A program made the translations under genes and the position numbers. A stretch of 64,000 bases of DNA from an uncultured Sulfurovum sp. GTDB lineage: Bacteria > Campylobacterota > Campylobacteria > Campylobacterales > Sulfurovaceae. The stretch spans positions 284,567 through 348,566 of the forward strand of contig CACVAS010000058.1 of assembly GCA_902727855.1 (NCBI GenBank), given 5' to 3'. This document shows, piece after piece, positions 863 through 29,050 of this stretch (position 1 is its first letter; the number at the start of each line of letters is the position of its first letter). The notes beneath the pieces are model-generated. The model did not search any database, was not told where the DNA came from, and saw only the letters and a list, made by a program, of their open reading frames with translations.

Positions 863-1603
863 TTGCTTGTTTCTATTATCACACCCTCTTACAATGCGCA
901 AGACTATCTTAAGCCCTGCATTGAATCAGTTTTATCTCAAACATATACAGATTGGGAAATGCTTATCGTGGATGATTGTTCATCGGATAACTCCCGTGAA
1001 ATTATAGAAGCATATGCAAAAAAAGATTCACGTATTAAGCCAACTTTTCTTCAAAAAAATGTTGGTGCTGCTATGGCAAGGAACGATGCTATCGCGACTT
1101 CAGAAGGTCACTACATTGCATTTTTAGACTCAGATGATACTTGGATACCTCATAAATTAGAAAAACAGCTCAAGTTTATGCAAAAAAATGATATAGCATT
1201 TTCGTACTCTTCTTACTACACTATGTCCGAGACGGGAGAAAATACAGGGGAGTTTATTGTCCCAGCGCGTATCAGTTATGAAAGTATATTAAAGACATGT
1301 AGTATAGGGTGTCTTACCGCGATTTATGATGTAAAAAAATTAGGTAAGACCTATATGATAAATGCTTCAAAAGGCGAAGACCTTGCGTTATGGCTCAATA
1401 TTATGAAACAAATTAAGGTAACAAAAGGGATAGTAGAACCCTTAGCACACTACAGAATCCAAAGCAATTCCCTCTCTAGTAACAAGCTCAACGCCGCCAA
1501 AGCACAATGGCATGTCTATAGAGAAGCAGAAGGCTTAAGCATTTTAAAGAGTAGCTACTACATGCTTCACTATGCCTACCATGGTTTTATGAAATACCGT
1601 TAG
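863..1603 (+). CDS. Family 2 glycosyltransferase
   Basis: A GT-A fold glycosyltransferase of about 246 residues, expected to transfer a nucleotide-activated sugar to a lipid-linked glycan on the cytoplasmic face. The N-terminus has VSIITPSYNAQ, followed by the nucleotide-binding IVDDCSSDNS and the metal-binding FLDSDDTW. The track starts at a TTG at 845 with no ribosome site. I prefer the TTG at 863, which has AAGGG about seven bases upstream and starts MLVSIITPSY. It is clearly paralogous to the product of 10127-10885 (same length, shared SNSLSSNK-type and FLDSDDTW motifs). It converges on the Wzz-like gene with a 17-bp overlap. Acceptor and donor are unknown. Confidence 0.9.
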   Translation: MLVSIITPSYNAQDYLKPCIESVLSQTYTDWEMLIVDDCSSDNSREIIEAYAKKDSRIKPTFLQKNVGAAMARNDAIATSEGHYIAFLDSDDTWIPHKLEKQLKFMQKNDIAFSYSSYYTMSETGENTGEFIVPARISYESILKTCSIGCLTAIYDVKKLGKTYMINASKGEDLALWLNIMKQIKVTKGIVEPLAHYRIQSNSLSSNKLNAAKAQWHVYREAEGLSILKSSYYMLHYAYHGFMKYR

Positions 1604-2429
1604 CCTTCTTCTTTTTTTCTGGCAGGAAAGAGATAAACAGTGCGAGTAAGGTTGATAAAATGAAAAAACCAACTATCCCCAATACCATAATCATAAATTT
1701 ACTTAGTGTAACCGGTTTATCTTCTACCTTTACATTATCTATCATCTGTGTTTCATAAGTATACTTCTTTAAAATTTGTCTTTTAGCTGTATTAATCTCT
1801 CTTATATACACATCACGACGATTATAAGCTCTTTCTAATATGCCATCACCTCTTATCATTTGTAATAAATTCATATTAATTAATGCCTGCTGATTATTAT
1901 CTAATGTAGACAATGCTTTATCATGTGACTTATGAGATAGCTTTATCTCTCTAATTTCATCATCAACTTTTTGCAGCATATCATTAGATAAATCAATTTT
2001 TTCATTTTTTGTTTTAATAAAATTATCTAATTGGGTATTATGCTCTGTAACAATCTCTGAAACTTTCTCTTCTAAGAATGCTGACAACTCTTCTTTATCA
2101 TACCCCTTTGCTTGCAAACGAATAATACCATTTTTTTTGTCACGAATCTTAATTTTATATACTCTTGGTAATGCTTTATTTGTCGCATTTACATTGTACT
2201 TATTAATTAGTTTTAACTCCAATGGTTTAATAGGCTCTATTAAAGACCTATTCTCTTTACCCACTTGTATCAATACTAATGCAGAGTAAATAGGTTTATG
2301 GACAACGCTTGCATATATTATTGATAATATAGTACCCATTATCGTTAATATAATGACCAATGTCTTATATGTTTTTATTAAAGTAAACAATTTATCTATC
2401 TCATTACGCTCTATTACATTATTATTCAT
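1587..2429 (-). CDS. Wzz/chain-length determinant-like membrane protein
   Basis: A 280-residue protein with the polysaccharide co-polymerase layout: a short cytoplasmic N-terminus, TM1 near residues 24-44 (VIILTIMGTILSIIYASVV), a long charged and partly coiled periplasmic region (about 45-245), TM2 near 248-268 and a lysine-rich tail EKKKKANG. Wzz proteins set the modal chain length of Wzy-made polymers in the inner membrane. The proline/glycine-rich pattern around TM2 is only weakly visible, so family assignment rests on topology and locus. It overlaps the next gene upstream by 8 bp and lies two genes downstream of the Wzy-like protein, which fits a Wzy/Wzz pairing. Confidence 0.75.
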   Translation of the reverse strand: MNNNVIERNEIDKLFTLIKTYKTLVIILTIMGTILSIIYASVVHKPIYSALVLIQVGKENRSLIEPIKPLELKLINKYNVNATNKALPRVYKIKIRDKKNGIIRLQAKGYDKEELSAFLEEKVSEIVTEHNTQLDNFIKTKNEKIDLSNDMLQKVDDEIREIKLSHKSHDKALSTLDNNQQALINMNLLQMIRGDGILERAYNRRDVYIREINTAKRQILKKYTYETQMIDNVKVEDKPVTLSKFMIMVLGIVGFFILSTLLALFISFLPEKKKKANGIS

Positions 2430-14164: not shown

Positions 14165-14830
14165 TTATATACGACTTTCATCACTAAGTCTCTTCAAGTA
14201 TCGTTCAAGATTTACAAAATCATTAATAGATAGCATATTTTTATCTGTAAAAATATTTTTATTATTTTGTGTCCGACGTAGCAGAAAATGTATATTATTT
14301 TCTTTTGCTGCTGTATAGTCTGACATGGCATCACCAATAAAAAGTGTTTCACTCTTATTTAATTTATTTGTCAGTAATATTTCTTTAACCCAATCAATTT
14401 TTGATTTAGGTGACCCAAAAATAGCATTAAAATAACTATCAATACTTTTTTCTTTACAAATTTTTTTCATCTCTTCCATAGGTGTTGCTGACACTATAAA
14501 ACAATTATAATTTTCTGCATAACTCTTCAAAAAATTATTTACTCCTTCAACCAGTGGTGCCTCAATCACTTTAGTTAAAACTAAATTTGAAAAAACTTCT
14601 GAAAGTTTATCTATTTTAGATTGTGTAATTTCTTTTTTTAATAATTCTTGTTCATAAAAATTAAATTTATCAAACCTAGACATGCCTCCATTTTGTAAAT
14701 GATGTAATCTCACTTTACTTGCAATATCATCCCCATAAGATAAATACATTTCATAAAAAGCCTCTGTTTTTATATCAACAGACTCACAGAGAACACCATC
14801 AAAGTCAAAAATAATATTTTTAATTTTCAT
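14165..14830 (-). CDS. HAD-superfamily phosphatase
   Basis: A 221-residue HAD subfamily I hydrolase. Motif I is IIFDFDGVLCES with the nucleophile Asp, motif II is FIVSATP, motif III includes the Lys in SPKSKIDWV, and motif IV is LFIGDAMSDYTAA. Such enzymes remove phosphate from small sugars or acids. It is the last precursor-type gene of the block that begins with the cytidylyltransferase at 18092, and overlaps the cyclase-family gene by 11 bp. By analogy with KdsC and similar phosphatases it may dephosphorylate the intermediate made by the aldolase or epimerase, which is an inference from position only. Confidence 0.85.
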   Translation of the reverse strand: MKIKNIIFDFDGVLCESVDIKTEAFYEMYLSYGDDIASKVRLHHLQNGGMSRFDKFNFYEQELLKKEITQSKIDKLSEVFSNLVLTKVIEAPLVEGVNNFLKSYAENYNCFIVSATPMEEMKKICKEKSIDSYFNAIFGSPKSKIDWVKEILLTNKLNKSETLFIGDAMSDYTAAKENNIHFLLRRTQNNKNIFTDKNMLSINDFVNLERYLKRLSDESRI

Positions 14831-15509
14831 ACTGTTCTATCTCTGCAATAATAGTACAAGGTAAACCATCACACTTAGATATTCTAAGTGGTACAATATT
14901 CAGTTTTTGTATTGTAGAATTTTTATCTAGCAAAGTTAAATCCATATCTTCAAGTAAAAGAATAGGTTTTGAAGGGTCTAAAAATGCTTTATGTGCTTCC
15001 CTTCCTAATAATCTATTTGAAAAACTTGAAACAGACACACTATCAAAACCCAATACCCTTACATTGCTAAAGTTTTCTCTCAAATAATTAGCAAGAATTG
15101 GATCGAACCCATAATTTTTTTCCCAAAACTCTTCTGTATTTCGTCTTTCACATATACCTGTTTTTATCACGATTAGTTCATAACTATTTTTATTTTTCAC
15201 CTTCTCTAAATAGCTTATTAAATCATCTTTTATGATGATGTCATCAGGTATAATATCAATAAATAAAATAGTGCCAAACCTAAAATAATCTATATCAAAA
15301 TCTTCTATCGTTTGTCCATTATCAAAAAAATGGTATGGCATATCTATATGTGTACCGATATGTACAGTAGTGCTAATGGAAGTATCATTCGCAACATCAC
15401 CTTTTGAGATATCTGATTTTTTTTCACATATAAATTTATTTCTATTCCCATATGTGGGGGTGTTTTCATCCAATATATATGAAAGATATTTATATTTACT
15501 CTGATTCAT
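14820..15509 (-). CDS. Cyclase/kynurenine-formamidase-like metal hydrolase
   Basis: A 229-residue protein of the Cyclase family (PF04199 type). The metal-binding signature is clear: TTVHIGTHIDMPYHFF, i.e. HxGTHxDxPxH. Later come GICERRNTEEFWEKNYGFDP and VRVLGFDSVSVSSF, also typical. Known members hydrolyse formamides, lactones or cyclic imines, using Mn or Zn. The track starts at TTG 15521, but ATG 15509 is preceded by GAGGATAATC and starts MNQSKYKYLSYIL, so I prefer it. The gene overlaps the epimerase gene by 14 bp. Its presence in a sugar-nucleotide block is unusual; the substrate may be a lactone or an N-acyl group on the sugar acid. Confidence 0.85.
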   Translation of the reverse strand: MNQSKYKYLSYILDENTPTYGNRNKFICEKKSDISKGDVANDTSISTTVHIGTHIDMPYHFFDNGQTIEDFDIDYFRFGTILFIDIIPDDIIIKDDLISYLEKVKNKNSYELIVIKTGICERRNTEEFWEKNYGFDPILANYLRENFSNVRVLGFDSVSVSSFSNRLLGREAHKAFLDPSKPILLLEDMDLTLLDKNSTIQKLNIVPLRISKCDGLPCTIIAEIEQYEN

Positions 15510-16377
15510 GATTATCCTCAATATCTTTCAGACAGTCCAACAGTCCTTGCCCCATATCAATATATGGGTTTGCTACCAATTTTTTACTCCTTGTCGGATG
15601 AAAGGAATAAGGCGTTGTTTTATAGTGATTACTATACCCATCATCTTGAAGAATAATTTTCAACTTTCCTCCCAATACTTCATTTATCATAGCGAAGAGT
15701 TCTTTTCTTTGCATACGTTCAACACCCGTTAATATAATATGCTCATTTATAAAGTCATCTGATTCTATTAAATCTACTGCCAATTTTGCAACATCTGCAG
15801 CATGTATATATTCTCTTATCTCTTCCCCATCACCACTATGACTTATTTCATTTGTACTTAATGACTTTTTTAAAAGATTGTAAATATAATTATTGTGATA
15901 GTCTCGTTCTCCATAGACTGAACCATAACGCACTATAGTAAATTCTAAGCCAAACTTTTTATAATACTCTTCTGTAAGCTTCTCCGAAGTTAATTTGCTT
16001 ATACCATAGAACGAACCCTTATCACTCATGGCATAGGCACTACTAGCATAGACAAATCGTTTAACATGGTACATTCTACATGCTTCTAAAATATTTAAAT
16101 TGCCCATTACATTTAACTCTAAGGCCTTGATAGGGTTAGCTATAGCATCATCTAAATTTGCAAAGCCTGCAAAATTATATACAATATCTGCACCTTCCAC
16201 TAGTCTATTTACATCACTTTTATCTAAAATATCACATGTTTTAAAATATTTATTGTCTACATATTTTGAGCTTTGTAAATCTGCAGATATAACCTCAAAC
16301 CCTTTAGATAAAAGTTCTTCAATCACATAACTACCTATAAACCCATTACCTCCAAAAACCACAACTTTTTTACGCAT
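15496..16377 (-). CDS. NAD-dependent epimerase/dehydratase (extended SDR)
   Basis: About 293 residues with the Rossmann motif VVVFGGNGFIGSYV, the conserved DIVYNFAGFANL, the catalytic YASSAYAMSD, and YGISK as the Tyr-x3-Lys pair, then IVRYGSVYGERDYHNNY. It belongs with nucleotide-sugar epimerases, dehydratases and reductases. The track start at ATG 16392 lies inside the upstream gene without a ribosome site; ATG 16377 is preceded by GAGG nine bases away and gives MRKKVVVFGG. It overlaps the hydroxyacid dehydrogenase gene by 8 bp. Whether it works on a nucleotide sugar or on a free or phosphorylated sugar cannot be decided here. Confidence 0.88.
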   Translation of the reverse strand: MRKKVVVFGGNGFIGSYVIEELLSKGFEVISADLQSSKYVDNKYFKTCDILDKSDVNRLVEGADIVYNFAGFANLDDAIANPIKALELNVMGNLNILEACRMYHVKRFVYASSAYAMSDKGSFYGISKLTSEKLTEEYYKKFGLEFTIVRYGSVYGERDYHNNYIYNLLKKSLSTNEISHSGDGEEIREYIHAADVAKLAVDLIESDDFINEHIILTGVERMQRKELFAMINEVLGGKLKIILQDDGYSNHYKTTPYSFHPTRSKKLVANPYIDMGQGLLDCLKDIEDNHESE

Positions 16378-17323
16378 TGTTGTATACCTCATTTTTCAAA
16401 GGTAATTCATTTTTATACCGTATCACTTCTTCGATAGCTTGTACTTCCATATCTGTTCTACTATCAATAGTACTAGCTCCCATATGGCAAGTTAACAAGC
16501 AGTTATCTAATTCTTTTAAATTTCCTTTGTACGGTTCAATTTCAAAAACATCAATCGCAGCAGAAGTGATCAAACCATTCTTTAATGCAAAGTATAAATC
16601 TTTTTCATTGACTATTCCCCCACGTGCACTATTAATGAGTATGGCATGATTTTGCATAAGTTCCAATTCAGGTAATGCAATATAATCTTTGGTCTTAACA
16701 TTTAAAGGCACATTGATGGATACAATATCGCTGGATGTTAAAAGTTCTTCTTTGGAGATAAACTCTACATTATAAAGTCTACCAAAAGCCAAGTCAGGTT
16801 CAATGTCATATACTTTAAACTTCATATTAAAAGTAGAAAGTAAGTGAATTAAACTTTTGCCTATCCGCCCCATCCCCAAAATACCTATGGTTTTTCCATA
16901 AAGTAAGGTACCCATATATCTGTGCCAAATGTCATTTTTAATATTGATATTTGTATCTGTTATTTTTCTAGCTACATCCAGTATCATCCCCACGCAAAGT
17001 TCAGCAACTGCCATAGTAGGAGCATCAGGGGTATAGGCTACACGTACACCATATTTTTTACATAAATCAAAGTCTATACCATCTAATCCTATGCCAACTC
17101 TAGAAATTAATTTTAAATGAGGTGCATTTTTAAAAACATCTTCCGTAATCTTTTCTGTACCAGCTACTAATACCTCTGCATCTTTTATATCTAGTGCTAA
17201 CTCTTCTGAGGTATTTTTTCGTCCATGTTCATTGACTGAGAGTTCAATACCATTGTCTTTTACAAGCTGCATTGGCAACGGTGATGTAGAGGAGAATGGA
17301 TGAGTAGAGACAAATACTTTCAT
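16370..17323 (-). CDS. D-2-hydroxyacid dehydrogenase (SerA/phosphoglycerate dehydrogenase family)
   Basis: A 317-residue NAD(P)-dependent dehydrogenase. The cofactor domain begins at TIGILGMGRIGKSLIHLL, followed by VYDIEPD and NVPLNVKTKDYI. The catalytic residues are visible as NSARGGIVNE (Arg), DVFEIEP (Glu) and CHMGASTIDS (His). Family members interconvert 2-oxo acids and D-2-hydroxy acids. Here it sits one base from an HpcH/HpaI aldolase gene, so it probably reduces or supplies a 2-oxo acid connected to the aldolase. Start ATG 17323 is supported by AAAAGG upstream. It is shorter than SerA and lacks the regulatory ACT domain. Confidence 0.9.
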   Translation of the reverse strand: MKVFVSTHPFSSTSPLPMQLVKDNGIELSVNEHGRKNTSEELALDIKDAEVLVAGTEKITEDVFKNAPHLKLISRVGIGLDGIDFDLCKKYGVRVAYTPDAPTMAVAELCVGMILDVARKITDTNINIKNDIWHRYMGTLLYGKTIGILGMGRIGKSLIHLLSTFNMKFKVYDIEPDLAFGRLYNVEFISKEELLTSSDIVSINVPLNVKTKDYIALPELELMQNHAILINSARGGIVNEKDLYFALKNGLITSAAIDVFEIEPYKGNLKELDNCLLTCHMGASTIDSRTDMEVQAIEEVIRYKNELPLKNEVYNNA

Positions 17324-17324
17324 C

Positions 17325-18083
17325 TTAAAACCTTTTCACTTTTTGCATGCCATCTATAGCCGCATCTCGCATAAAGAAGTAGTCAATTCCATACGCAAGG
17401 AAAGTACAACCTTGTGCTATTTTTTGATTTAAATTTTCGGGATTTGTGTCAACCACATGAAAACCAGATGGTATATTATGCGCTTTACAGTTATCTAAAA
17501 CTTTTTGCACGGCTTCTTTAACATCTGCTCTTTCAAATTCTCCAGGGTAACCCATAGAACCCGATAAATCATAGGGTCCTATAATAGTTCCATCTATCCC
17601 CTCGACCTGTAGAATATCATCAATGTTGTTGACCGCATCAATATGTTCAATTTGTGCAATAATGACCAACTCTTCATCTACCCACTTCTTATACTCTTCA
17701 AATTTTGTACCAAATTTAGTCGATCGATATAAGCCTACCCCTCTTTTACCTACAGGAGGGTATTTAGCATAATTGACAGCTTGCTCAGCATCTTCTTTAG
17801 AAGAAACCATAGGAACGATGATACCATCTGCTCCCATATCTAATACTTTTTTAATAACCACTTCTTCATTTTTACTCACCCGTACCAAAGCTTTTATGTC
17901 ATTGGCTTGAATTGCTATAATCAATGTTTGCACAGTTTCCATGTCTATAGGAGTATGTTCTATATCTACTACCAACCATTCAAAGCCAGCTAACGCCATG
18001 ACCTCTACACTCATTGAATTCCCCATCATAATCCATGAACCTATGGTTAATTGATTATTATTTAACTTTTGTTTTAAAGTCAT
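17325..18083 (-). CDS. HpcH/HpaI-type class II aldolase
   Basis: A 252-residue TIM-barrel aldolase of the HpcH/HpaI/citrate-lyase family. Recognisable parts are the general base region VVDIEHTPID, the pyruvate-binding Arg in ALVRVSKNE, GADGIIVPMVSS, the metal Glu in IIAQIEHIDAVNN and the metal Asp in IIGPYDLSGSMG. Family enzymes reversibly add pyruvate (or a related oxo acid) to aldehydes, giving 4-hydroxy-2-oxo acids such as 2-keto-3-deoxy sugar acids. In a polysaccharide locus, beside a CMP-sugar-type cytidylyltransferase, a synthetic role is plausible. AAGGAATAAA precedes the ATG. It lies 8 bp from the cytidylyltransferase gene. Confidence 0.92.
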   Translation of the reverse strand: MTLKQKLNNNQLTIGSWIMMGNSMSVEVMALAGFEWLVVDIEHTPIDMETVQTLIIAIQANDIKALVRVSKNEEVVIKKVLDMGADGIIVPMVSSKEDAEQAVNYAKYPPVGKRGVGLYRSTKFGTKFEEYKKWVDEELVIIAQIEHIDAVNNIDDILQVEGIDGTIIGPYDLSGSMGYPGEFERADVKEAVQKVLDNCKAHNIPSGFHVVDTNPENLNQKIAQGCTFLAYGIDYFFMRDAAIDGMQKVKRF

Positions 18084-18091
18084 TTTATTCC

Positions 18092-18766
18092 TTAAATAGT
18101 ATCTTTATGTATGTGTAATAGTTCTGCCAATTTAAAATCTTCTGGTTCGTCTATATCTATAGCCTCTAGTTTATTGACTTCAAAGATCTGTGGTTTTAAA
18201 CCTATACGTTTTTTACCAACATTATCAAAAGAACTTTTAGAGAATATGTAAAAGTTAGAGTTCTCTTCGTAGAGTGGTTCTAGATCTTGAGTTCTTAAAA
18301 GTTCTTCGGGGTTATGGTTCACAGGGGTTGCATCTTTATCATAAAAACGTGTTTGTATCTTAGTCACACCAAATAAAGAATCGTTTGTTTTCAATTGTCT
18401 AAAGTAAGCTTCTATAGCTCTATCTATTGTTTCACTTCGTACAAGTGGGTTGGTACTATGTGTTTGTAAAAAATGTTCACCCTCAAGTTTATTTAAATCA
18501 TAATCTATGATGATGTTCATAGAAACATCACCACCCTGTATAGATTCAGGCCTATCAATAATAATTACTTTATCCCCAAAGTGTTTTGTTGCATCTTCAG
18601 CGATGATAGGGCTATCGGTATTGATAACTACACTCTCAACATATTGAGATGCCAAAAGTGCCTTCATGACAGCATGATAAAGCGGTGCACCATCAAAATA
18701 ACGCATATTTTTATTGGGTACGCGTTCAGAGTTCCCTTTCATGGGCAAAAGAGCCGTTATTTTCAT
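18092..18766 (-). CDS. Acylneuraminate/CMP-sugar-type cytidylyltransferase
   Basis: About 224 residues of the NeuA/KdsB-like family, which activates ulosonic acids with CTP. The N-terminus has ALLPMKGNSERVPNKN, a variant of the family's LxARGGSKxxxxKN loop, followed by VVINTDSPIIAEDA, FLQTHSTNPLV and the C-terminal EAIDIDEPEDFKLAE, whose aspartates bind the metal. The track start (18832) is too long: ATG 18766 has AAGGA seven bases upstream and starts MKITALLPMKG. It is the first gene of the block running down to at least 14165 and probably to 6476. The activated compound is unknown; no NeuB or KdsA homologue is in the window. Confidence 0.87.
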   Translation of the reverse strand: MKITALLPMKGNSERVPNKNMRYFDGAPLYHAVMKALLASQYVESVVINTDSPIIAEDATKHFGDKVIIIDRPESIQGGDVSMNIIIDYDLNKLEGEHFLQTHSTNPLVRSETIDRAIEAYFRQLKTNDSLFGVTKIQTRFYDKDATPVNHNPEELLRTQDLEPLYEENSNFYIFSKSSFDNVGKKRIGLKPQIFEVNKLEAIDIDEPEDFKLAELLHIHKDTI

Positions 18767-18826
18767 GCATAAATCCTTAATACTATATGTTAGAAGGATT
18801 ATACAATAAACTTTATAATGTTGTAG

Positions 18827-18861
18827 TACCACAAAACTTTCAACGAGTGAGCTTTGTGGTA
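18827..18861. terminator. Stem-loop between secreted fibre-like gene and cytidylyltransferase gene
   Basis: A perfect 9-bp inverted repeat, TACCACAAA and TTTGTGGTA, with a 17-base loop, begins 8 bases after the stop of the 18869-20233 gene. It could end that transcript, but no long T-run follows on the minus strand, so a role as an operator for the cytidylyltransferase operon is also possible. Confidence 0.45.
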
Positions 18862-23099: not shown

Positions 23100-24995
23100 C
23101 TAAAATAATTTATCATAATCTTTTCTCTCGAAAAGTTCAAGCTTCCCGCCAACAGTTGCATTATAAATTTTACGTCCATCTTCTTCAAACGCTTCTTTAC
23201 ATTTTTCATAGTTCATAAGCACTCTGTCAAGTTTTGGATCATGCCACTTTTTACCTTTTCCAAAGTAGTCTGGATGAAAGTGATTTGGATCATCTTCATT
23301 ACTTTCGTATGTATTTCCAGTAATTTCTGTACTTGTAGGTACATCATAAGAAAAGTCCATTCCTATAAGATAAACTTCAGTGAAACCTAAATAATAGGCT
23401 AATTGTAGTTGCATCATAGTAACAGATTGACCAGCATAAGCCTTCTCTGAAAAATCAGTAGAAAACTGTGCTATAGGGTTTTTGCTATTATAGAAAGATA
23501 AATCCGCATTAAAAAAATGTGTTTTTTTAGTCTTTCTAATTTTATTTTTATATATATAAGGAAAAAATCTATGTTCACAATCAAATTTATTTATTTCTTT
23601 GATATTATCATTTACTACATGACCATCTTCTACCATATAAAAGTTTGGTCTATATCCCATTTCTCTAGTTTTATAAAAAATTCCATTCACAGCGAAACTA
23701 TATTCATCTTTTAGTAATGATAAGTCACATTTATTTAAAGATGGGCCATTTCCAATTACAAAACATCTTTCTCCTTGAAACATATTATGATATTGTTTCA
23801 ATTCTATTTTATCTTTATTTGTAAAAGTTGGTTTTTTTAATTTAGGCATAATAGTATTTCCTAAAATTGTTTTAACAACTTGTCTCTTATTTGATTTTTT
23901 TGGTAAAATCTTATCGATTATCTTTTTCATATCTTTTTTAGATCCTTTGTATTTTTTCAACTCTTCTACTTGTTTCTCTAATTCTAAAATTCTATTTTTA
24001 TAATTGATAATATCTAAGCTATCAATTTGTAAATTTTTATCAAATTTTTCATTATAATATTTAGCACATTTCTTACTAAGATCATTATCATATTCCAATA
24101 ACATTTTAATGTTACTTTCTGTCAATATATTATCTTCTAGTAAGTTTTTTCTAACAATTGATTCTAAATAAGTTTTTTCTTTATCTAAAAGTGTTGAGTG
24201 TTCTATTCGACTAAAAAGCCCCATTGTAAAATGAAAATATCTTCGTAAATAATATAAGTAGTTTTTATCTAAAATATTATTTTGTAACAAATATCTTTTT
24301 GTATCTCTAACTATAAAGAAAATGTCATCAATGTGCTTTTGAGTAATACTTTTACTAATAGAATCTTTACGTTGTAGCCAATTATAAAAATTTTCAGAAA
24401 CTGAACCTATTTTTTGACTCTTTATAAAAAGTTTGTATGTTATTGCCACATCCTCATGATATAAATCTTTGGGGTATAACAATTTATTTTTAATAAAAAG
24501 ATCTTTTTTAAATATTTTATTACAAGCCATAGATGTAATCTTTGATGATAACATTCGAGAACAAATATAATCATTATCAAAAATTTCATTTTTCATTACC
24601 GTCTGATATAAAATATTGCCTTTAGTATCAACTTGGCTAAAACCACAAATAACAATGTCTAATTTATCATTTTTAGCCTTGTTGTACATAGTTTCAAGCA
24701 TAATACTATCTATATAATCATCTGAATCTAAAAATGCTAAATACTCTCCTTCACTATTCACTATACCACTATTTCTTGCTTCACTAAGTCCTTTATTTCC
24801 CTGATCGATAATTTTAATTCGAGAATCTTTTTTTGCATACTGTTCCAATATCTTAATACTATTATCATTGGATCCATCGTTAATGGTTATGATTTCAATA
24901 TTTTTAAGCGTTTGTATGACTACAGAGTCTAAACACTTTTCAAGATATTGTTCAACGTTATATACAGGGATAATTAAACTAATGTATGGTTTCAT
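23100..24995 (-). CDS. Fusion of GT2 glycosyltransferase and DUF115/MptE-like domain
   Basis: A 631-residue two-domain protein. Residues 1-330 are a GT2 domain (ISLIIPVYNVEQYLEKCL, ITINDGSNDNS, GLSEARNSGI, LAFLDSDDYID). A basic coiled linker (about 335-385, ILELEKQVEELKKYKGSKKD) follows. The C-terminal domain (about 395-631) contains CFVIGNGPSLNKCDLSLLKD, YRPNFYMVEDG, YLIGMDFSYD and a final NATVGGKLELF. That pattern matches the DUF115/6-hydroxymethylpterin-pyrophosphokinase-like fold, related to Maf motility-accessory glycosyltransferases, and also recalls GT42 sialyltransferases (GNGPSL). A second transferase activity is likely. It overlaps the methyltransferase gene by 17 bp and precedes the MBOAT gene by 10 bp. 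Confidence 0.82.
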   Translation of the reverse strand: MKPYISLIIPVYNVEQYLEKCLDSVVIQTLKNIEIITINDGSNDNSIKILEQYAKKDSRIKIIDQGNKGLSEARNSGIVNSEGEYLAFLDSDDYIDSIMLETMYNKAKNDKLDIVICGFSQVDTKGNILYQTVMKNEIFDNDYICSRMLSSKITSMACNKIFKKDLFIKNKLLYPKDLYHEDVAITYKLFIKSQKIGSVSENFYNWLQRKDSISKSITQKHIDDIFFIVRDTKRYLLQNNILDKNYLYYLRRYFHFTMGLFSRIEHSTLLDKEKTYLESIVRKNLLEDNILTESNIKMLLEYDNDLSKKCAKYYNEKFDKNLQIDSLDIINYKNRILELEKQVEELKKYKGSKKDMKKIIDKILPKKSNKRQVVKTILGNTIMPKLKKPTFTNKDKIELKQYHNMFQGERCFVIGNGPSLNKCDLSLLKDEYSFAVNGIFYKTREMGYRPNFYMVEDGHVVNDNIKEINKFDCEHRFFPYIYKNKIRKTKKTHFFNADLSFYNSKNPIAQFSTDFSEKAYAGQSVTMMQLQLAYYLGFTEVYLIGMDFSYDVPTSTEITGNTYESNEDDPNHFHPDYFGKGKKWHDPKLDRVLMNYEKCKEAFEEDGRKIYNATVGGKLELFERKDYDKLF

Positions 24996-26241
24996 GTATT
25001 ACCTTTACTATGTTTATACACATTTTATATTTTTTTATAAGCCGCAAGGATAATCTACTATTATTAACATTACTTGCCATTTCTTTTAAACTCTTTATGA
25101 AATTATCTTTTTCGAAAATTTCTTTATCTCTAGTCTCTATTCTTTCTTTCTGTTTTTCTATTTCTTTATCTCTAGTCTCTATTCTTTCTTTCTGTTTTTC
25201 TATTTCTTTATCTCTAGTCTCTATTCTTTCTTTCTGTTTTTCTATTTCTTTATCTCTAGTCTCTATTCTTTCTTTCTGTTTTTCTATTATTTCTTTTTGC
25301 TTCATTGCATACATTTGATTATCTTCCAAAAACTTTAAATAATGTTGTATACGATGGTAATCATTAGATACGAGATTATTTCGAATATTTTTAATTTGAA
25401 AAACGGCTTCTACTTCTTCATTACCCTCTAGCAATGAAAAACTATTCTTTCCTAAGATATTGGTAAGTGTTATCAACGAAAAGTTGTACATGTGTGCATG
25501 CACAGCATAACCTAAAAATGAGAAATTATAGTAGGGTTTATTATGATTTTTTAATATACCTGGTACTTCTATATACAATAATCCATCATTATTAAGTAGC
25601 TTTACTAAAGTATTTAACTCATCTTCCAAATCAATAAAATGTTCAAATACATGGCTTAAGATAATAATATCGAATTTTTTATTTAATTTTAAGACAGAGG
25701 AAGCGTTACCTTCAATCATATTTAGGTTGCGCTTTTGACATTGTCTAATGCAATCATGTGAATATTCAGTTCCATATAACTCAATATCCATGAGTTTTTC
25801 AATAGATTTTTGTCTAAATTCATCTAGTACATTTCCTACTCCCGCTCCAATCTCAAGAATATCAAGGTGTTTTTTATCTTTTACATACGGATAAAGTGTA
25901 TTAAATATCTTCTTTCCTTGTCCTGACTTAAAGAGTGCAACTTGATTATCAAGATTTTCTTTACCATAATTAAGAGGGTGATAGTATTTTTCATAATAAT
26001 ACGGTAGAGAATCTTGTGTCATACGTGGACTTGTCATAATTAGCCCACAGTTTGTACATACATAACTACCAAAAGGTAAATCAAATCTATCAACTTCAAG
26101 TAGTTTTTCTAAATTATCATTATTGCAACAGATACAATAATTAACCTTTTCAAGCTTGATTTTATAGCTTTGTATATCTTGAATTAAAAGCTCTTTATAT
26201 TTTTTTGTAACATCACTTAATGTACGTAATCCTATTTGCAT
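24979..26241 (-). CDS. SAM methyltransferase with N-terminal Zn-knuckle and C-terminal repeat coiled coil
   Basis: A 420-residue protein. Residues 35-70 carry CxxC pairs (CICC and YVCTNCGL) of the zinc-binding methyltransferase type. The SAM-binding core follows, with LDILEIGAGVGNVLDEF (motif I), FDIIILSHVFEHFID and GLLYIEVPG. From about residue 310 the chain becomes a long coiled coil containing four units of EKQKERIETRDKEI, with Ile every seventh position. A basic amphipathic C-terminus follows (SLRLIKKYKM). It overlaps wzt by one base and lies in the Wzm/Wzt operon, the position occupied in E. coli O9a by WbdD, a capping methyltransferase whose coiled coil measures chain length. Substrate is unknown. 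Confidence 0.85.
   Translation of the reverse strand: MQIGLRTLSDVTKKYKELLIQDIQSYKIKLEKVNYCICCNNDNLEKLLEVDRFDLPFGSYVCTNCGLIMTSPRMTQDSLPYYYEKYYHPLNYGKENLDNQVALFKSGQGKKIFNTLYPYVKDKKHLDILEIGAGVGNVLDEFRQKSIEKLMDIELYGTEYSHDCIRQCQKRNLNMIEGNASSVLKLNKKFDIIILSHVFEHFIDLEDELNTLVKLLNNDGLLYIEVPGILKNHNKPYYNFSFLGYAVHAHMYNFSLITLTNILGKNSFSLLEGNEEVEAVFQIKNIRNNLVSNDYHRIQHYLKFLEDNQMYAMKQKEIIEKQKERIETRDKEIEKQKERIETRDKEIEKQKERIETRDKEIEKQKERIETRDKEIFEKDNFIKSLKEMASNVNNSRLSLRLIKKYKMCINIVKVIHETIH
25118..25285 (-). repeat. Four perfect 42-bp tandem repeats within the methyltransferase gene
   Basis: The unit ATTTCTTTATCTCTAGTCTC... (plus strand) is repeated at 25118, 25160, 25202 and 25244 with no mismatches over 168 bp. 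Each unit codes for 14 residues, EKQKERIETRDKEI, i.e. exactly two heptads, so adding or losing a unit keeps both the reading frame and the coiled-coil register. Perfect identity points to recent expansion or ongoing homogenisation. Confidence 0.98.
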
Positions 26242-28262
26242 TATACAATCCCTTTAGGATAAACCATAAGGTCACACCAACCTCTATCATTTTGGTTATG
26301 TCCAATTATATATGATATAAACATATCTACTTCTTCTAGCTGAATTGTATTTCTCAAGATATCATTTAGACTATCGTTTTTAAATTTGTTTCTCATAGGT
26401 AATTCAACAACATTATACTTACTTATTAATTCTTTTAAAAACTCATGAGGGTTAGTGCCTTGTGATCTTAACCAGTATGGAGCAAATTCAGTTTTTATTA
26501 ACCAGTTATTATTTTTTACTAAATAATTTTCTCCTCCATGAAATACATTTTCTTCATAACCTTGTGTGTCAATTTTTATAAAATAAAAATCACTATGATA
26601 CATTTCAAATAATTTATCAAGACTTATTGTGGGTATAACTTCTTGTCCCCATCTATCATTTTCAGCAACAACCCTATTATCTTGACTTCCAGAGGGATTT
26701 AATGAAAACTTTCTCTTTTCATCGAAATTTTCAGCACATATGGCATTATGAAGTGTGTAGGTATTGTTAATATTACATGATAGATTCTTATTTATGTAAT
26801 TACAAAGATCACTACTTGCCTCAACCAATACTATTTCAGCTTTTGGAAATGCTTTTGCAAAAACAATACTTGTAAACCCATAATTGGCACCAATATCAAA
26901 TATTACAGAGGGATTAAAATATTTCTGTATATCTGAATATAATTCTGAATTAAGTTCTTCGTACGAGGTTTTTCCTCCATACGTAAGAGCACTTTTATCT
27001 AAACTATTTACTGTCAATGATACATCGTTAATAAGAATGTCTTTATTAATGTTTTTTTTAGGTAACCATGTATGTTCCACTGTAACAAAACCAAAGTATC
27101 TAGTATCGGTATTGATGCTTATAAGATCATTATTTAAAGTCCTTGTTAAACATTCTGAACCATCATATATACTGATAATACTAATATATCTACCTGGATT
27201 AAAAATATTATTGAATGTACAAATTATTTCACATATTCCATTTTTAATGATGGGTTTATATTTTTGCATTTCATTTGAAATGCCTGTAATACATTCTCCA
27301 TTTTCTGTCCAAAATGGTATACCGACGATAAGATTTTTAGGTTCATATAATAGATTAAACATAATGATTAAAGATACTTTTTGGTTGGTTTTGACTTTTT
27401 CTAGAGTATTGCCACTACTATCTACCCATGAAAAGGTTATAGTTTGAATTTTATTTGCATTATGAAAAAGATCTCCATAAAAGGGTTTAGTAGAGATAGA
27501 TTTTTCTTTCATTTTAGTTTTTTTATTTTCTTCTTGCTCTAAATAATATTTAATCGCATCATCTGGCTTACCATTAAAGGTCAAATTCCCTTTTTCTAGA
27601 ACAATAACTCTATCACAAAAAAGACGTACACTATTCATAGAATGAGAAACAAATATCATAGATATATTTTCTCTCATGCCGTTTATCTTAGCTAGGCATT
27701 TTTGTTGGAAATTAAAATCACCAACTGCTAAAACTTCATCGAGTATAAGTATATCGGGTTCTACAGAAGTTGCTATGCCAAAACCTAGCCTAGACTTCAT
27801 CCCAGAACTATACACTTTAACAGGTTGGTCTATGAACTCACCTATCTCTGCAAAGTCTTCTATCTCTTTGGTTTTATCTAATATCTCTTTTTTAGATGTG
27901 AAACCTTGTACTTTTAGGTTGTAGACTATATTTTCCCGCCCAGTCATTTCAGGCTTTAAATTAGAAGTTAGTTCTAAGATAGCCGAGACCTTACCATATG
28001 TTTTTACCTTACCACTACTAGGGCTAATTACCTTTGCTATAATTTTAAGAAGTGTAGATTTACCATTACCATTACGACCTATAACCCCTAGTGCTTCCCC
28101 TCTTCTTAACTCTAGAGAGACATTATTAAGCGCATAAAACTTTTTATGGTATATTTTCTGAGAAAAACCCAATGACTCTTTTACTCTATCAAATGGTTTT
28201 TTATAAAGTCTATATGTTTTTGAAACTTTTTCAGCATATACTACCACTTCTCTCAAACTCAT
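26241..28262 (-). CDS. wzt: Polysaccharide ABC transporter ATPase (Wzt) fused to an FkbM methyltransferase
   Basis: A 673-residue three-part protein. Residues 1-240 are the ATPase: LGVIGRNGNGKSTLLKIIAK (Walker A), VYSSGMKSRLGFG (signature) and DILILDEVLAVGD (Walker B). Residues about 265-405 are a beta-rich domain in the position of the Wzt C-terminal carbohydrate-binding domain. Residues about 430-650 are an FkbM-type SAM methyltransferase (VIFDIGANYGFTSIVFAKAF, EIVLVEASSDLCNYI, FIKIDTQGYEENV). Wzt energises export of lipid-linked glycan, and its C-terminal domain reads the terminal cap in some systems. The start overlaps the stop of wzm by 4 bp. Fusion with FkbM is unusual and is discussed in the findings. 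Confidence 0.93.
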   Translation of the reverse strand: MSLREVVVYAEKVSKTYRLYKKPFDRVKESLGFSQKIYHKKFYALNNVSLELRRGEALGVIGRNGNGKSTLLKIIAKVISPSSGKVKTYGKVSAILELTSNLKPEMTGRENIVYNLKVQGFTSKKEILDKTKEIEDFAEIGEFIDQPVKVYSSGMKSRLGFGIATSVEPDILILDEVLAVGDFNFQQKCLAKINGMRENISMIFVSHSMNSVRLFCDRVIVLEKGNLTFNGKPDDAIKYYLEQEENKKTKMKEKSISTKPFYGDLFHNANKIQTITFSWVDSSGNTLEKVKTNQKVSLIIMFNLLYEPKNLIVGIPFWTENGECITGISNEMQKYKPIIKNGICEIICTFNNIFNPGRYISIISIYDGSECLTRTLNNDLISINTDTRYFGFVTVEHTWLPKKNINKDILINDVSLTVNSLDKSALTYGGKTSYEELNSELYSDIQKYFNPSVIFDIGANYGFTSIVFAKAFPKAEIVLVEASSDLCNYINKNLSCNINNTYTLHNAICAENFDEKRKFSLNPSGSQDNRVVAENDRWGQEVIPTISLDKLFEMYHSDFYFIKIDTQGYEENVFHGGENYLVKNNNWLIKTEFAPYWLRSQGTNPHEFLKELISKYNVVELPMRNKFKNDSLNDILRNTIQLEEVDMFISYIIGHNQNDRGWCDLMVYPKGIV

Positions 28263-29050
28263 ATTACATCTCCAAAATGTGGTCTTAGCTTTTTATAAAC
28301 AAAGATACCTAAAAACATAAAAACAAGGGTAAAGCTAAGAAATGAGAATAAAAATGTACCATCTTCCCAAAACCAAACGTTATTAAGAAATGTATTTCTA
28401 TAGCCATTGACTATGTAAACCATAGGATTAAAATTCAATATCCACAGGTATTGTTCTGGTACACGAGAAAAAGACCAAAATATAGGGGTAACCCAAAACC
28501 CAACTTGTAGTAATGCTCCTACAAACTGTGCAACGTCTTTAGTAAAGACACTCAAACTTGCCAATAGTAATCCAAAACCGAAGAGTAATAGAGAAAGCAT
28601 CAAAATATAAAAAGGTAACTGAAACCAATAAATACTAGGATAAAAACCCATGATTAACATCATTACTACAACAATACTTAAAAAAATAAGATGCAATAAA
28701 AAAGATGAAAGTATTTTAACTACGGGCAATAATATTATCTTAAAGGACGGTCTCTTTACTAAGCTTTTGTTACCTGTGAATGCATTCATAGTACTGCTTA
28801 GTGAGGTAGAAAAAAACATCCATGAAGTATAACCAGTAAGTAGATAGAGTATAAAGGGTGCTTTGCTATCTATCAGATCATCTTTAAGTCCTACAGAGAA
28901 TATAAGCCAAATAACAAAGATAAAGATAAGAGGCCTAATAATTGCCCAAACAATACCTAGGTATGAACCCATAAACTGTTCGTTAAAGTCTAGTAATGCA
29001 AGAGAAATAAGAAGCTTGTAGTTCTTTAAAAGAGCATATATATGGTTCAA
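28259..29050 (-). CDS. wzm: Polysaccharide ABC transporter permease (Wzm)
   Basis: A 263-residue ABC-2-type membrane protein with six hydrophobic segments. The N-terminal DFNEQFMGSYLGIVWAIIRP is the conserved amphipathic start of Wzm/KpsM/TagG permeases, and GFWVTPIFWSFSRVPEQY precedes the penultimate segments, ending NPMVYIVNGYRN. It forms the inner-membrane channel for lipid-linked polysaccharide, with Wzt as motor. The start is a TTG (29048-29050) with a strong GGGGGAG ribosome site. It is the first gene of the minus-strand operon; the 149-bp gap upstream should contain the promoter, though I cannot assign a convincing -10. Confidence 0.92.
   Translation of the reverse strand: MNHIYALLKNYKLLISLALLDFNEQFMGSYLGIVWAIIRPLIFIFVIWLIFSVGLKDDLIDSKAPFILYLLTGYTSWMFFSTSLSSTMNAFTGNKSLVKRPSFKIILLPVVKILSSFLLHLIFLSIVVVMMLIMGFYPSIYWFQLPFYILMLSLLLFGFGLLLASLSVFTKDVAQFVGALLQVGFWVTPIFWSFSRVPEQYLWILNFNPMVYIVNGYRNTFLNNVWFWEDGTFLFSFLSFTLVFMFLGIFVYKKLRPHFGDVI

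Follow-up and report, generated by a model that had tools for sequence, protein, structure and literature searches.

Does the gene that follows wzt in a polysaccharide cluster of an uncultured Sulfurovum sp. encode a chain terminator whose length ruler is built of tandem DNA repeats? The question was raised by an earlier note on the window (the whole stretch of 64,000 nucleotides of contig CACVAS010000058.1 analysed here), which described a methyltransferase joined to a repeat-built coiled coil and likened it to WbdD. In E. coli O9a, shortening the WbdD coil gives shorter O antigen in vivo and lengthening it gives longer O antigen (PMC6286764), and terminators can in general be recognised by their coil (PMC11231755). 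The features of the locus are listed below, with the basis for each in parentheses.

28259..29050, minus strand: Wzm, permease of a glycan ABC exporter (Pfam ABC2_membrane)
26241..28262, minus strand: Wzt, with an ABC ATPase, a Wzt_C carbohydrate-binding domain and a fused FkbM methyltransferase (Pfam; 1-bp overlap with the methyltransferase gene)
24979..26241, minus strand: methyltransferase-coil protein, proposed chain terminator with a repeat-built ruler (ORF; Pfam Methyltransf_23; orthologs in the same gene order)
26047..26136, minus strand: putative zinc ribbon CxxC...CxxC, residues 36-65 (cysteines conserved across all orthologs)
25432..25878, minus strand: SAM-dependent methyltransferase domain, residues 122-270 (Pfam Methyltransf_23, E=1.3e-16; AlphaFold/Foldseek)
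25066..25359, minus strand: continuous predicted helix, residues 295-392, proposed ruler (AlphaFold2; heptad periodicity)
25118..25288, minus strand: perfect array of 4.1 tandem copies of a 42-bp unit that encodes two heptads, IEKQKERIETRDKE (Tandem Repeats Finder; unit comparison)
24985..25044, minus strand: C-terminal helix, residues 400-419, basic and amphipathic (AlphaFold2)
23100..24995, minus strand: family 2 glycosyltransferase (GT2) with a short coil and an MptE-like domain, candidate polymerase partner (Pfam; 17-bp overlap with the methyltransferase gene)

The ORF at 24979-26241 on the minus strand encodes a methyltransferase-coil protein of 420 amino acids. Its start codon shares 1 bp with the stop codon of wzt (TAATG at 26243-26239), in agreement with the overlap claimed in the earlier note. 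Wzm and Wzt are encoded upstream and the GT2 protein downstream, giving the order wzm-wzt-MTase-glycosyltransferase; the gene thus lies with wzm, wzt and a candidate polymerase glycosyltransferase, the operon setting of the terminator class. Like WbdD of O9/O9a, it occupies the terminator position in the order wzm-wzt-terminator-polymerase (wzm-wzt-wbdD-wbdA in E. coli O9) and encodes an N-terminal methyltransferase, a long coil and a predicted C-terminal helix. Unlike that protein, it has no kinase, carries a zinc-ribbon-like N-terminus and lacks the SRSWRMTK tail. With WbdD of O8 it shares a methyltransferase and coil without kinase and the same 1-bp overlap with wzt, but its methyltransferase belongs to a different subfamily. 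Similarity to the WbdD methyltransferases is weak (hhalign probability 46%; 92% for O8 WbdD). Two assignments were rejected: WbdD sensu stricto, the O9a methyltransferase-kinase, because the 420 residues hold no kinase and give no convincing alignment; and O8-type WbdD, because the BLAST match is poor (E=0.009 over 104 aa) and the tail motif SxSW[KR]xT is absent. Of the proposed likeness to WbdD, the joining of methyltransferase and coil in a protein encoded where wbdD would lie therefore stands, but orthology does not.

The fold claimed for the catalytic part was borne out by the Pfam match, and Foldseek agrees on the AlphaFold model; a catalytic domain that could modify a chain end, as in coiled-coil terminators, is accordingly a predicted part of the protein. 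Near the N-terminus, the cysteines of the CxxC...CxxC motif are kept in all orthologs, with a different spacing within the first pair, and this region may bind zinc. The best Foldseek matches of the catalytic part are the zinc-ribbon sugar C3-methyltransferases MtmC, KijD1 and TcaB9. Since such enzymes act on dTDP-sugars, the window protein could instead be a sugar methyltransferase that modifies a nucleotide sugar or an internal residue, with a coil that serves only to form oligomers or to anchor the enzyme on the glycosyltransferase and transporter, and with a nearly neutral number of units. The FkbM methyltransferase fused to Wzt could then be the real capping enzyme. We consider this reading unlikely: in the window protein a coil replaces the C-terminal part of MtmC/KijD1/TcaB9-type enzymes, the gene lies between wzt and the glycosyltransferase in each ortholog lineage, a long rod followed by a short C-terminal helix is predicted, and the array design recurs in homologs of characterised terminators (see below).

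Tandem Repeats Finder, run on the window, returned a period of 42 bp with 4.1 copies, 100% matches and a score of 342, a count that may be a lower bound if the 170-contig assembly was made from short reads, the array being 171 bp long. It is by far the strongest tandem array within the window (25118-25288), and the whole genome carries it a single time. Pairwise comparison of the four whole units revealed 0 nucleotide differences, confirming the claim of four perfect 42-bp units of two heptads. Each unit encodes IEKQKERIETRDKE (14 aa; the earlier note gave the unit in another phase). The unit is highly charged.

AlphaFold2 predicted one uninterrupted helix from residue 295 to 392 (98 residues, approximately 14.7 nm at 0.15 nm per residue). 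As the earlier note had anticipated, it runs unbroken through the array and is followed by a short helix of 20 residues (400-419), the latter modelled with low confidence. Residues 395-412 have a hydrophobic moment of 0.51 and a net charge of +5, and helix 400-419 is a candidate for contact with the membrane or the polymerase. Heptad periodicity of the coil was matched in strength by only 1 of 2000 composition-preserving shuffles. The core is thin, with core residues (nearly all Ile) at 10 of 10 places of one register position and mostly polar residues at the other, suggesting that the coiled coil is weak or that the helix is held mainly by salt bridges. An extended helix toward the C-terminus, as in coiled-coil terminators, is therefore predicted, with a thin core.

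Taken together with its position, these features make it probable that the window gene encodes a WbdD-like chain terminator of the Wzm/Wzt pathway, in which a rod of in-frame repeats sets glycan length stepwise. The N-terminal methyltransferase would cap the growing polysaccharide chain, while the helical rod would keep its active site at a distance from the polymerase at the membrane, such that only chains long enough to span the rod would be capped and exported. The rod would be built of in-frame tandem DNA repeats, mostly of whole heptad numbers; slippage or unequal recombination would add or remove units, altering rod length stepwise with the frame intact and thereby shifting the modal length of the glycan. 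Because the units are in-frame and mostly whole heptads, gain or loss changes rod length without breaking the reading frame. Given the published effect of WbdD coil length and the use of the coil as a terminator marker, a repeat coil beside Wzt is most simply read as a ruler that changes by units. Capping activity, control of glycan length and the rate of change in the window organism are what we infer. Several observations count against the terminator reading: similarity to the WbdD methyltransferases is weak, the closest folds methylate nucleotide-linked sugars, the FkbM domain on Wzt could do the capping, the window family is without the SxSW[KR]xT tail, the core is thin, the ruler of E. 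coli O9 WbdD is constant in length, and heptad register is not strictly kept in L031 or in an O8 duplication (see below).

One scan over 84,980 species genomes yielded five loci with true orthologs of the window protein (44-50% identity). The order wzm, wzt, methyltransferase-coil, glycosyltransferase is common to all five, being visible only from the wzt end onward on the short L033 contig, and in L035 the GT2/MptE-like protein also has an ortholog in the same position (47% identity over the full length). Methyltransferase domains align along their whole length (approximately 50% identity); the coils do not align. Coil length varies from 59 to 163 residues among the orthologs, and the number of units differs; the fixed number that the earlier note named as a refutation of its idea was thus not found. 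L035 has a coil of 63 bp x 7.3 copies and L033 one of 84 bp x 2.2 copies. In L031 the 63-bp array is irregular, containing duplications of 54 bp and 15 bp and departing in places from the heptad, and L032 shows a decayed periodicity of 21 residues (63 bp), as judged by eye. The translated units have the core IEKQxxxIxxRDxxI in common, suggesting that the units are homologous and were probably amplified anew in each lineage. For L035, AlphaFold predicts a layout like that of the window protein, with a helix at 330-496 and another at 503-521. Variable coil length would also be expected from relaxed constraint, which favours the sugar-methyltransferase reading set out above. The window subfamily is rare: 397 genomes spread over the phylum and 175 from the family yielded just three carriers. 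Searches of viral and phage collections found no full-length relative of the window enzyme, and a plasmid search matched distant methyltransferases only.

A difference of one whole unit was seen between L033 and L034. Taking exactly 84 bp out of L033 gives identity with L034 over 3,149 bp, with no mismatch; the two are thus alleles set apart solely by one unit (four heptads). A copy-number difference between otherwise identical alleles, as expected at a VNTR contingency locus, was therefore found in this pair of the family, not in the window's own strain. The loci come from sibling metagenomes, and their bins are different organisms at a ribosomal locus (71% identity), indicating that one contig was mis-binned or that the cluster moved recently; under either explanation there are two alleles. 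It is also possible, however, that the difference reflects an assembly error in one contig, against which counts that the array overlaps itself by 100 bp, less than the k of 151 given in the L034 contig name.

A survey compared 54 regions around Wzt_C domains in Campylobacterota with 40 random regions drawn from many of those genomes, the control being random genomic DNA rather than other polysaccharide loci. Coil-coding tandem arrays were present in 19 of the 54 Wzt_C regions and 1 of the 40 random regions (Fisher p=7.4e-5). Some counted arrays sit in genes of other kinds, such as that of a histidine kinase in L116, leaving approximately 16 loci by Wzt on inspection. Among ORFs with a coil, called by a simple composition rule, the array lay inside the coil in 19/142 from Wzt_C regions vs 1/72 from random regions (p=0.0027). 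Each of the 23 coil arrays near Wzt has a period divisible by 3, and for 16 of them it is a multiple of 21 bp (binomial vs 1/7, p=2.7e-9). Non-heptad periods in the survey include 33 bp (hendecad) and 54 bp (18 residues), both compatible with a coil, and also 27 bp. The 42-bp unit of two heptads described in the earlier note thus holds for the window but is not general, units elsewhere being of 21, 42, 63, 84 and 105 bp and in some cases 33, 54 or 27 bp. In L104, a sulfotransferase-coil protein, orthologs within the genus have coils of differing length and repeat period, but sequence divergence prevents a count of units, and two leave their contigs inside the coil. Plasmid homologs from Pseudosulfitobacter, Sulfitobacter and Shinella had no coil arrays.

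These data also bear on whether the arrays lack biological meaning, having arisen by neutral slippage or through misassembly of repetitive coil sequence. Many of the loci are metagenome assemblies, two contigs stop within the coil, and the different organisms in the L033 and L034 bins show that binning is imperfect. Nevertheless, the enrichment by Wzt_C stands against both random regions and other coil ORFs, all periods keep the reading frame, and a duplication in O8 WbdD (see below) lies on complete plasmids from two species. We therefore regard this explanation as having hardly any probability.

Several array bearers are related to terminators that have been characterised. One, the WbdD homolog L094, matches E. 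coli O9 WbdD across methyltransferase and kinase (444 aa, 39% identity); its ruler consists of 105 bp x 5.9 copies (five heptads per unit), and it has a WbdD-type tail. L085, L092, L121 and L123 are O8-type WbdD homologs (36-46% identity) with 21-bp or 42-bp arrays. Behind the coil, the tail SxSW[KR]xT is present in E. coli O9 WbdD and at eight loci of the survey; it was found in no control region and is absent from the window family. L110, beside Wzt, encodes a terminator-type protein with a 42-bp repeat coil and a GT99 domain, the class of Kdo transferase to which the WbbB terminator belongs. The Klebsiella GT99/WbbB and GT137 terminators likewise combine a capping enzyme with a coil ruler in ABC-dependent glycan synthesis (PMC11231755), although their cap is Kdo and not methyl.

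In contrast to the perfect array of the window protein, the O9 WbdD coil is of constant length, and no heptad array was found when it was examined. The C-terminal ruler region is exactly 810 bp in each full-length match listed, including alleles of 87% identity (211 of 263 genomes cover at least 80% of the query). Variation of ruler length in E. coli O9 WbdD was accordingly rejected, the shorter matches being IS1 truncations. O8 WbdD, on the other hand, has a natural allele with an exact tandem duplication of 156 bp (52 residues) of the coil, giving 477 instead of 425 aa. It is carried on complete IncX5 plasmids found in E. coli and in Serratia marcescens, and the accompanying wzm and wzt proteins are unchanged. 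The duplication junction is present in 1 of 5,426 E. coli genomes; the O8 WbdD query is covered to at least 80% in 302 genomes, and the full-length matches listed are all of single-copy length. A natural tandem-duplicated coil allele is a further likeness between O8 WbdD and the window family, although the O8 duplication is a single 156-bp event and no array. As 52 residues are no multiple of a heptad, the register is broken. The expectation that unit changes keep heptad register thus holds for most units, which are whole heptads, but fails for the O8 duplication and the L031 irregularities.

A different role for variable repeats is known from NeuO, the O-acetyltransferase of the E. coli K1 capsule. 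There, a variable tandem repeat encodes heptads and activity climbs linearly with heptad number (PMC3046976). NeuO resembles the window protein in being a surface-glycan enzyme whose heptads come from tandem DNA repeats, and in NeuO the copy number alters function (PMC3046976); by analogy, repeat number in the window protein might tune catalytic rate or avidity instead of measuring length, and its unit is highly charged, as in NeuO. However, NeuO is no terminator, its 7-bp units lead to on/off frameshifts, and its repeats are N-terminal, unresolved in the structure and change activity with no length ruler. The window array, in contrast, lies between the catalytic domain and the C-terminus, like the experimentally shown ruler of WbdD. 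Tuning of rate or avidity is thus very improbable.

The terminator reading draws on what the sequences show, namely the repeat array, where the gene lies, the helix prediction, natural differences in unit number and the recurrence of this design in terminator homologs. It is possible, and we propose this tentatively, that the ruler in ABC-transporter glycan pathways commonly evolves as a tandem array, its length heritable, stepwise and slippage-driven, with contingency-fast change in some lineages. Coiled-coil rulers and VNTR-encoded heptads (NeuO) were already known; a literature search that missed key ruler papers found no ruler built from tandem repeats whose natural alleles differ in unit number.

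The coiled-coil ruler of glycan terminators has so far been known mainly from engineered E. coli WbdD. If the reading proposed here is correct, nature would have repeated the length-change experiment many times, through gains and losses of whole units in several enzyme classes beside Wzt. Natural allele pairs (L033/L034 and the 425- and 477-aa forms of E. coli O8 WbdD) make the ruler model testable outside O9a, and a repeat coil may serve as a practical marker when unannotated polysaccharide clusters are searched for terminators, sulfotransferase-like candidates among them. For the bacteria, such arrays would provide a simple genetic route by which the length of a surface glycan is altered in steps while its expression is kept.

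The coil of the E. coli O8 chain terminator WbdD was found in two forms, the longer of which contains a 156-bp exact tandem duplication and is carried by IncX5 plasmids of E. coli ECONIH4 and Serratia marcescens.

L191 2501-3934: O8 WbdD, duplicated coil
L190 2501-3778: O8 WbdD, single-copy coil

The duplicated coil is a naturally occurring long-ruler allele. In some E. coli O9 strains (loci L188 and L189), wzm and wzt are absent next to an IS1 copy, and wbdD is reduced to its C-terminal portion, whereas wbdA is intact.

Two contigs with orthologs of the window methyltransferase-coil gene, L033 and L034, differ solely by one repeat unit. The bins that hold them belong to separate organisms, only 71% identical to each other at a ribosomal locus, and therefore either one contig was mis-binned or the cluster moved recently. 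A WbdD homolog from the Campylobacterota survey carries a ruler built of 105-bp units.

L094 4914-5529: 105-bp ruler array, 5.9 copies

A T run in one 105-bp unit, unlike the other units, splits this gene into two frames, reflecting either a sequencing error or a frameshifted gene.

Repeat coils were also joined to other domains. Near Wzt, proteins at L102, L104, L106 and L181 combine a sulfotransferase-like domain, a repeat coil and a WbdD-type tail, and are possible sulfating chain terminators, a type with no counterpart among those described in the literature examined. In three further proteins, with coil units of 11, 18 or 9 residues, the domain order of WbdD is reversed, with the methyltransferase following the coil.

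DUF4214-type N-terminus, repeat coil, C-terminal methyltransferase:
L086 7443-8966
L089 7446-9035
L119 8755-10218

The exporter itself can carry a methyltransferase, a second candidate enzyme for capping or post-capping.

Wzt with C-terminal FkbM methyltransferase:
Window 26241-28262
L035 3912-5960 (by full-length similarity)

Wzt of the ortholog loci L031, L032 and L034 has no FkbM methyltransferase.

Elsewhere in the window, a gene row that may yield a CMP-activated acidic sugar by an unusual route is 74-83% identical to its L032 counterpart, above the 49% identity of the proposed terminators of these loci.

Window 14820-18832: consecutive cyclase, NAD epimerase, 2-hydroxyacid dehydrogenase, HpcH aldolase and cytidylyltransferase genes
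L032 8712-12346: counterpart row
Window 1587-2429: Wzz-type chain-length protein

Because the Wzz-type protein and the ABC exporter lie in one polysaccharide region, two length-control systems may coexist in the window.
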